This document shows positions 27,997 to 29,394 of a stretch of 64,000 nt of DNA, piece by piece; within the stretch, counting starts at the first letter, position 1, and every line of letters starts with the position of its first letter. Both the position numbers and the translations under genes were made by a program. A model generated the notes under the pieces. It was not told the DNA's origin. It saw nothing but the letters and a program-made list of their open reading frames with translations, and searched no databases. This stretch comes from Bacillus sp. ISL-55 (GTDB lineage Bacteria > Bacillota > Bacilli > Bacillales > Cytobacillaceae). Where the stretch lies: the NCBI RefSeq assembly GCF_018613155.1, contig NZ_JAGGQU010000001.1, positions 187,848-251,847 of the forward strand, given 5' to 3'.

Positions 27997-28022
27997 TAAA
28001 ATATTTTAAGTTAAGCCGATAA
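27997..28022 (+). promoter_or_regulatory. Sigma-D (motility) type promoter
   Basis: TAAA (27997), 14 bp, then GCCGATAA (28015-28022). This fits the sigma-D/FliA consensus TAAA-N14-16-GCCGATAW and lies 38 bp before the start of a gene with a chemotaxis signalling domain. Confidence 0.75.
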
Positions 28023-28059
28023 TAATCTTTGACACAATGTTGTTAGAGGAGAGATTATT

Positions 28060-29394
28060 TTGGCTAATAGAGGTTTGAACGTAGGCAAGCAAGCACCAGA
28101 TTTTGCTTTGCCCGGAACGAATAATGCAAAATACAGCTTATCAGACTTCGCAGGTCAGCCTATAATCATTGTTTTCTTAAGAGGCACATGGTGACCAAAC
28201 TGCCGAAATCAGCTGGTCCAGCTGAATGAACAATATGATTTCTTAAGAGAAAAGGGGATTCAGGTTCTTGGAATTGCCGGACAAAATATCAATGGAATCC
28301 AGGCGTATGTCGATAAGGAAGGCATCAAGATTCCAATTCTGTCTGATGAAAAGAGAACGGTGATCAAGCAATATGAGGTTTTTGTACCAGTAAAATGGGA
28401 TAGTTTCCGGATAGCCATACCTAGCACCTATGTCCTGGACGAAAACCATTTGATTCGCTACAGCTATATAGGAGATTCGCAATTTGATCGTCCAGCGCTG
28501 GATGAAATCTTGAATATCGTCCAGGAAATCCATCAGCCAGGTCAGGATGGAGAAGAAGCAGATGACCAAGGACAGGCAGGCGTATTCGTTGGTGCAATGA
28601 AAGAAACCTTCAATGATATTGTTTTATCCACCCAGAACATTAAACAAAGTGTGAATCGTAATCTGGTTTCTATTAGTGGATTGGAAAACGAACTCACTGA
28701 AAATAAAGAAGCACTATCCCAATTTTTTACCGTATTTGAACAAATGGAATCAAAGATTAGCATGTACAGCGGTGCAATTGAAGAAGTAGCAGAGGGCTCT
28801 GTTGCTGTCATAGAGGATAATCAGCAGGCTGTCGAGCATATGAATCAAACATCAGAATTGTTAAAGGAACTTGTAAGTTTAACTAAAACCATTGGCAGCA
28901 TCAGCTCAACGATTTCATCGATTTCAGGACAAACGAAAATCCTGGCCTTAAATGCTTCCATAGAAGCGGCACGTGCAGGTGAACACGGTAAAGGATTTTC
29001 TGTTGTCGCAAAAGAGGTAGGCAAGCTGGCTGCTGCCTCTGCAGAAGCATCTCAAAATATATCGACACAATTAGAAGGAATAGAGAACAAAATCAGTTCA
29101 AGTTTTTCTTCATTCACTGACTTTGATGACCTAATGCAGCAGATAGACGCTAAGGTGAAATCTCAAAATAAAGAGCTCGAAAATGTTTCGTCTGGTATCT
29201 TATCGATAAGGGCCGATAGCATGTCCCTGGCAGACCGTTTGCGAAAGATCACGGAACAGCACGACACCCAGCAGCGGAAAATCAGTTCAGTCAAACAACA
29301 AGAATTGAATATATCTTCCGAAATAGATGGAATTCATCAGGATATCGAACAAAATAATAAACTAGTGTCTGAGCTCGACAAGAGATTTTTATAG
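28060..29394 (+). CDS. Selenocysteine peroxiredoxin-chemoreceptor (MCP) fusion, in-frame TGA
   Basis: The frame runs from TTG 28060 (AGAGGAGA upstream) to 29394, 444 residues if TGA 28192-28194 is read as Sec45. Residues 1-150 form an AhpC/TSA-type peroxiredoxin domain: [47 protein letters not shown]. Family members have Cys at the TGA position and Cys48 is kept, giving UxxC. A short acidic linker (about 158-175) leads to a coiled-coil methyl-accepting domain with the hairpin tip near 291-318 ([29 protein letters not shown]). No membrane segment is present, so it would be a soluble receptor signalling to CheA. A SECIS-like hairpin follows the TGA, and a sigma-D promoter precedes the gene. The alternative is a nonsense mutation of a Cys codon. 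No Sec-synthesis genes lie in the window. Confidence 0.82.
28209..28225 (+). other. SECIS-like hairpin downstream of the in-frame TGA
   Basis: The 7-bp perfect stem TCAGCTG/CAGCTGA has loop GTC (GGTCC if the closing pair opens). The GU of the loop is 21 nt after the TGA, inside the 16-37 nt window known for bacterial SECIS elements. The GGUC loop equals that of E. coli fdhF. A competing stem GACCA/TGGTC (28193-28218) is also possible. Confidence 0.65.

Follow-up and report, generated by a model that had tools for sequence, protein, structure and literature searches.

A predicted selenoprotein chemoreceptor with a UxxC redox domain and a soluble MCP signalling hairpin in Bacillus sp. ISL-55

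Introduction

Does an in-frame TGA in an apparent chemoreceptor gene of Bacillus sp. ISL-55 end a broken gene, or is it read as selenocysteine (Sec), and what would such a receptor respond to? The question arises in a 64,000-nucleotide stretch of this genome (contig NZ_JAGGQU010000001.1, positions 187,848 to 251,847), referred to here as the window. An earlier note on the window had proposed that the TGA encodes the Sec of a peroxiredoxin-type domain fused to a soluble chemoreceptor signalling domain, with peroxide taxis as the outcome. In the parts of a 2026 catalogue of prokaryotic selenoproteins covered here (PMC13188914), many of these proteins are homologues of thiol oxidoreductases or carry redox motifs, and most are thought to have redox functions. 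A receptor with Sec and one Cys as its sole redox pair would extend the use of selenium to sensory signalling.

Results

One frame joins a redox domain to an MCP signalling region

The predicted selenoprotein chemoreceptor gene lies on the forward strand (28060..29394) and has a TTG start, a TGA as codon 45 (28192-28194) and a TAG stop (29392-29394), giving a product of 444 residues. Sequence and translation agreed with the earlier note that this single frame is broken solely by the TGA, the TAG being the next in-frame stop, and the described motif GTW-U-PNCRNQL and the intact Cys48 were both present. A ribosome binding site, AGAGGAGAG, was read from the sequence on the same strand (28045..28053). 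This site and the same TTG were found in all nine full-length fusions of the genus, which supports the TTG as the start. Most of the redox domain is missed by gene calling that takes the TGA as a stop; a plain listing of open reading frames starts at GTG 28360.

Residues 8-134 (28081..28461, forward strand) form an AhpC/TSA-fold redox domain of the peroxiredoxin-like, ResA-like kind (Pfam AhpC-TSA, E 7e-31). A helical MCP hairpin region extends from about residue 176 to residue 444 (28585..29391, forward strand) according to Pfam and alignment, its outer limits being an estimate. Within this region, Pfam MCPsignal matched residues 255-399 (E 2e-25; 90 bits, cut-off 34.6), and a 24-residue MCP tip lies near residues 297-320, giving the protein both the signalling domain and the conserved hairpin tip that mark a chemoreceptor. 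The top 19-residue Kyte-Doolittle mean was 0.99 for the window protein and did not exceed 1.37 in any of the 13 full-length fusions described below, in line with the absence of a membrane helix claimed before. The two Pfam domains and the lack of any sign of a membrane helix also support the soluble chemoreceptor architecture that had been proposed. In the predicted product, a short linker connects a UxxC thioredoxin-fold domain with a soluble MCP signalling hairpin. Rfam (at gathering scores) and ARAGORN returned nothing in the window, and a search with a library of defence genes returned a single weak match, in the coiled coil.

Homologues carry TGA or a Cys codon at position 45

We searched 41 genomes, comprising that of ISL-55, 20 others of the genus and 20 beyond it. 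Full-length fusions were found in nine genomes, all within the genus and at 80-100% identity, and each contained exactly one TGA, at codon 45. The nine genes represent eight distinct coding sequences, L025 being identical to L024. The carriers include Bacillus sp. ISL-37 and Mesobacillus selenatarsenatis SF-1, the latter being our ground for inferring that the window organism belongs to Mesobacillus. The full-length recurrence of the frame, the TGA and the fusion in 9 of the 21 genus genomes (ISL-55 included) argues that the arrangement is not due to chance. The other 12 genomes of the genus lack the full-length gene, which is therefore dispensable. One of them (G008) has a standalone TGA form, L027, and another (G010) has L026, in which the MCP part is mostly deleted. 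In the remaining eight genus genomes that yielded neither these forms nor the remnants described next, the best among the matches listed was the MCP part of another receptor; small remnants may exist in these genomes.

Remnants of the fusion (L110:2665-2895 and L029) were observed in two sister-species genomes, G014 and G012. The G014 remnant is flanked by the STAS-type and SNF2-type genes (named by eye) that also flank the fusion in the window, and the G012 remnant directly follows the SNF2-type gene (likewise named by eye).

When 398 genomes of the class were searched, the top 12 matches, all at E 2e-48 or lower, belonged to the family of the window gene, and the next was at 8e-24. Whole-family searches of two families (7 and 39 genomes) added one further member. 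The earlier note had asked whether the same fusion occurs in homologues with Cys or TGA at this codon, and both were found. TGA is present in the nine genus fusions and in L054, and Cys codons (TGC or TGT) are present in L052, L053 and L097; these last four fusions lie outside the genus, in two other families, and L052 and L053 share 41% identity with the window protein. Among standalone relatives, L028, L058 and L060 have TGA and L055, L056, L057 and L059 have Cys, so that Cys stands at the UGA position in homologues of both architectures. By the note's own account, its proposal would fall if all close relatives had TGC or TGT, leaving this strain unique, and the gene were otherwise decaying. 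Neither was the case: the close relatives carry TGA, and the gene is under purifying selection, as described below. A phylum-wide search of 398 sampled genomes at E 1e-30 returned G000 and G006 only, no plasmid copies were found at E 1e-20, and no gene neighbourhood common to the families was seen by eye.

Position 45 was then masked and a tree built from the redox domain. A branch with support of 100/99 split off all included fusions together with L026 and L027, in a tree that has 10 of its 17 inner branches drawn open and a midpoint root only, and from which L059 was left out as its C-terminus departs. Given this support, a single origin of the fusion, followed by changes between Sec and Cys and by losses of the MCP part, would be the simplest reading. 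L025, which has the coding sequence of L024, was left out of the selection analysis, the tree and the SECIS-rule test. The remnant L029 was left out of the TGA-position, upstream-site, hairpin, tree, SECIS-rule and Cys/Sec-count sets.

Purifying selection acts on both sides of the TGA in the predicted gene

The dN/dS ratio was calculated codon by codon over 444 codons of the eight distinct genes. Upstream of the TGA the median was 0.083; downstream, it was 0.071 for the remaining redox domain and 0.113 for the linker and MCP part (28, 23 and 22 usable pairs of 28, respectively). On this comparison, purifying selection acts on both sides of the TGA, and the in-frame UGA lies within coding sequence that is conserved upstream and downstream of it. 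The low dN/dS downstream makes translation past the UGA the natural inference, and UGA 45 of the predicted gene must be read through if the conserved product is to be made.

A SECIS-like hairpin follows the TGA

As given in the part of the catalogue covered here (PMC13188914), the rules for a bacterial SECIS (bSECIS) element are a loop of 3-9 nt, a stem of 4-16 bp, a G within the first two loop positions, a spacing of 16-37 nt and a folding energy of -7.5 kcal/mol or lower. The hairpin UCAGCUG-GUC-CAGCUGA (28209..28225, forward strand) satisfies all of them. It has 7 bp and the loop GUC, starts 14 nt past the UGA, places the apical loop 21 nt from the UGA and folds alone at -8.3 kcal/mol. The fold is not exceptional when compared with shuffles of its own stretch (z -1.6; 14 of 200 shuffles were as good).

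Covariation and conservation of synonymous sites further mark the hairpin. Across 15 sequences (14 distinct), 94.9% of the cells were paired and three of the seven pairs had two-sided changes. The covariation score was reached by 0 of 500 shuffles; the two-sided pair count (matched by 26 of 500) and the further pair types (matched by 420 of 500) do not stand out. When the partner strand was slid along, pairing fell to 41% or less. In the eight distinct fusions, only 1 of the 17 hairpin sites varied, as against 40% of sites gene-wide, and third positions varied in 208 of the 290 codons with an invariant residue.

The bSECIS rules were satisfied by 11 of 14 Sec genes and by none of seven Cys genes. 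As background, they were satisfied at 241 of 15,325 codons (window frames of 200 or more codons, both strands) and at none of eight terminal TGAs of long frames in the window. Three Sec genes (L026, L027 and L028) have hairpins in register that are weaker than the -7.5 kcal/mol rule, and a fourth (L058) passes only with a hairpin in a different register. In the Cys fusion L053, a 6-pair stem persists in register, but its loop fails the G rule.

The genome encodes the Sec machinery

The earlier note had called for a search for the Sec machinery in the same genome and would have taken its absence as a refutation. We found all four components, namely selA (563 bits), selB (364 bits), selD (395 bits) and a tRNA-SeC gene (selC) with anticodon tca, so that SelA, SelB, SelD and tRNA-Sec are all encoded alongside the candidate gene. 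On contig C1 of this genome (L105:6845-9837), selA adjoins selD on the opposite strand, and the SelD frame contains a TGA close to its start. With this TGA, the genome has at least two predicted selenoproteins.

selB and tRNA-Sec each reach their cut-off in 20 of the 21 genus genomes, as against nine genomes with a full-length fusion; a strict tie between the machinery and the fusion was therefore rejected. The tRNA-Sec cut-off was reached by 14 of the 15 genomes with a Sec form, the exception, G010, being 66% complete. It was missed by five of the six tested genomes with a Cys form, G154 being the one that reaches it and G431 lying outside the test. The tRNA-Sec model is not fully specific, as 5 of 14 control genomes also score over the cut-off and extra above-cut-off matches of 48-56 bits occur in G154 and G217; the selB cut-off was passed by 2 of 14 control genomes. 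In G004, which is 87% complete, the selB match (C232:20379-22151) contains one in-frame TGA, an error or a sign of decay.

The TGA is almost certainly a Sec codon

If the TGA were an ordinary stop, a sequencing error or the mark of a pseudogene, the gene would be broken and only fragments would be made. The MCP-deleted form in G010 and the remnants in G012 and G014 fit such a view, but it is highly improbable, and we rejected it: the TGA recurs in nine genome assemblies (eight distinct coding sequences), the sequence downstream of it is under purifying selection, homologues have Cys codons, and the hairpin is both frozen and covarying. Reading of the TGA as Trp was also rejected, because the homologous fusions without TGA have Cys codons. 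The conserved TGA, the Cys homologues, the SECIS-like hairpin and the Sec machinery all support the Sec claimed in the earlier note at 28192..28194 (forward strand), where it would be Sec45, the first position of UxxC (U45-P-N-C48). The window gene is almost certainly a real selenoprotein gene.

Predicted Sec45 and Cys48 form a ResA-like UxxC motif

The earlier note had placed the TGA exactly at the peroxidatic position, and profile alignments to solved structures disagree with this placement. In these alignments, U45 is paired with the Ser of FSPVC in chain 2cx3_A, the Ser/Thr position of the peroxiredoxin motif, and, in ResA, with the first Cys of CxxC. The Cys of FSPVC, which we take to be the peroxidatic one of that chain, is matched by Cys48. 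By alignment, the predicted Sec therefore opens a UxxC motif of the ResA type. The strict peroxiredoxin motif, PxxxTxxC/U in the part of the catalogue covered here (PMC13188914), is absent, with R41 aligned to its Pro and Sec45 to its Ser/Thr. The combination of PF00578 and UxxC that defines a Prx-like thiol:disulfide oxidoreductase is present in the window protein. ResA was the best NCBIfam match, below cut-off (67 of 170 bits), and the best solved-structure matches include thiol peroxidase and peroxiredoxin chains of strength similar to ResA. In 13 of 13 full-length fusions, positions 45 and 48 (44 and 47 in L053 and L097) are the only Cys or Sec residues; a Sec45-Cys48 switch, or a Cys-Cys switch in the Cys forms, would therefore be the sole possible Cys/Sec redox centre in the chain.

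The Prx-like thiol:disulfide oxidoreductase selenoproteins of the catalogue (PMC13188914) share the Pfam domain PF00578 and Sec as first residue of UxxC with the window protein, whereas no MCP fusion appears in the catalogue table rows covered. A word search of the main text of the same paper gave no occurrence of "chemotaxis" or "methyl-accepting". Standalone ResA and PrxQ (BCP) share the fold and the best solved-structure matches with the window protein but have no signalling domain attached; where the window protein has UxxC, ResA carries CxxC, and in the matched BCP-type chains Ser or Thr stands instead of the first Cys. The Cys fusions L052, L053 and L097 have the same architecture as the window protein, but with Cys instead of Sec45 and without a hairpin that fits the SECIS rules.

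The MCP tip and the upstream region suggest a chemotaxis output

A 16-residue core of the MCP tip is invariant across eight aligned fusions from three families, the alignment covering 8 of the 13 full-length fusions. The tip has QTK and EVG or EVT where we take the usual form to be QTN and EVR, and given these departures its coupling to CheA is not certain.

A promoter-like site of the SigD type (motility sigma factor), TAAA-N14-GCCGATAA, was found at 27997..28022 on the forward strand by a pattern match to what we take to be the SigD-type consensus. It is the only match in the window, where 0.18 are expected; one or more matches occur in 17 of 100 shuffles. The -10 block GCCGATAATA lies upstream of all nine full-length genus fusions and of L026 but not of the standalone L027; at -35, TAA is conserved and the fourth base varies. 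For the four non-genus fusions, the 300 nt upstream contained no such pattern. Genome-wide, there were 12 matches versus six for the reversed control, a mild excess, and four of these matches fall within another frame or opposite one. Elsewhere in the ISL-55 genome (L087, L089 and L093), the pattern stands before flgM and a CheW-response regulator (CheV-type) gene, both identified with Pfam, and before an MCP gene recognised by eye. The site suggests that, in the genus, the fusion is expressed with motility and chemotaxis genes.

The predicted product resembles TlpD of H. pylori and other CZB receptors, as described in the part of PMC6715182 covered here, in being a cytoplasmic chemoreceptor that would be controlled by reversible oxidation of one residue. 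In TlpD, this residue is a Cys in a zinc-binding CZB domain that senses HOCl, whereas the window protein has a UxxC thioredoxin-fold domain. A search with Pfam gave no CZB match in the window protein at E 0.001, which sets it apart from receptors of the TlpD type.

Discussion

From these comparisons, the gene product is very likely a cytoplasmic selenoprotein redox chemoreceptor that would work as follows. An oxidant, which may be peroxide or a disulfide or thiol-redox partner, would oxidise Sec45, and Cys48 would resolve the oxidised Sec45 to give a selenenyl-sulfide. The change in the N-terminal domain would shift the MCP hairpin and so alter CheA activity, and thioredoxin or a similar reductant would reset the Sec45-Cys48 pair. 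Cells would then show redox taxis, moving either away from oxidising zones or towards them. It is likely that the Sec-Cys selenenyl-sulfide switch gates the CheA array directly, which would make selenium chemistry an input of behaviour.

The sequence alone indicates neither ligand nor oxidant, and peroxide and disulfide-type inputs may both be compatible with it. There is somewhat less than an even chance that the receptor, still a selenoprotein, takes as its input the thiol-disulfide or electron-transport state, through a ResA- or thioredoxin-like partner, and not peroxide itself. The alignment of the TGA with the leading Cys of CxxC in ResA, with Sec or Cys replacing the peroxiredoxin Thr/Ser, speaks for such an input, as does ResA as top NCBIfam match, though under its cut-off; the prokaryotic catalogue, in the part covered here, also includes a Prx-like thiol:disulfide oxidoreductase with UxxC (PMC13188914). 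Peroxide, however, is favoured by thiol peroxidase and peroxiredoxin structures that match about as strongly as ResA and by the alignment of Cys48 with the peroxidatic Cys of those chains. Moreover, Sec often serves in peroxide reduction.

Two other readings concern the role of the receptor. The hairpin might no longer serve chemotaxis, the MCP-like coiled coil organising or regulating another pathway and the redox domain acting as an enzyme. The QTK and EVG/EVT tips, judged against the form we recall, would suit this idea, and within 8 kb around the four non-genus fusions we saw by eye no shared or evident chemotaxis neighbours; it is unlikely, however, given the tip core that is invariant in the eight aligned fusions of three families and the SigD-type site in the genus. 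It is quite unlikely that the receptor is a selenium gate, whose level reports selenium supply through UGA decoding, with the redox chemistry secondary. The full-length product does need the Sec machinery, which the genome has, and Mesobacillus selenatarsenatis is among the carriers, but the Cys fusions L052, L053 and L097 exist. Two Cys-fusion genomes were tested, G137 without a tRNA-Sec above cut-off and G154 with one; the design can therefore work without selenium. A redox chemoreceptor with a Sec-Cys switch is thus the reading that we prefer.

A selenoprotein chemoreceptor of this kind would be a new combination of known modules, and the prediction is well supported by comparison. By title or abstract start, among the matches listed, no selenoprotein chemoreceptor was found in the open-licence literature, either in general or in searches for chemoreceptors with peroxiredoxin or thioredoxin and for selenocysteine in Mesobacillus, Bacillales and Brevibacillus. 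The lineages that swap Sec and Cys are natural pairs for asking why a sensor would use selenium, and they make the question testable as one of signal sensitivity or speed, not of catalysis.

The standalone proteins L028, L058 and L060 are Sec UxxC AhpC/TSA proteins from three other families of the class. None of them reaches an NCBIfam cut-off, and they may therefore represent an unnamed selenoprotein family. A more distant AhpC/TSA match with one in-frame TGA was observed in G216 (C30:42341-42829), a genome that has a tRNA-Sec above cut-off.
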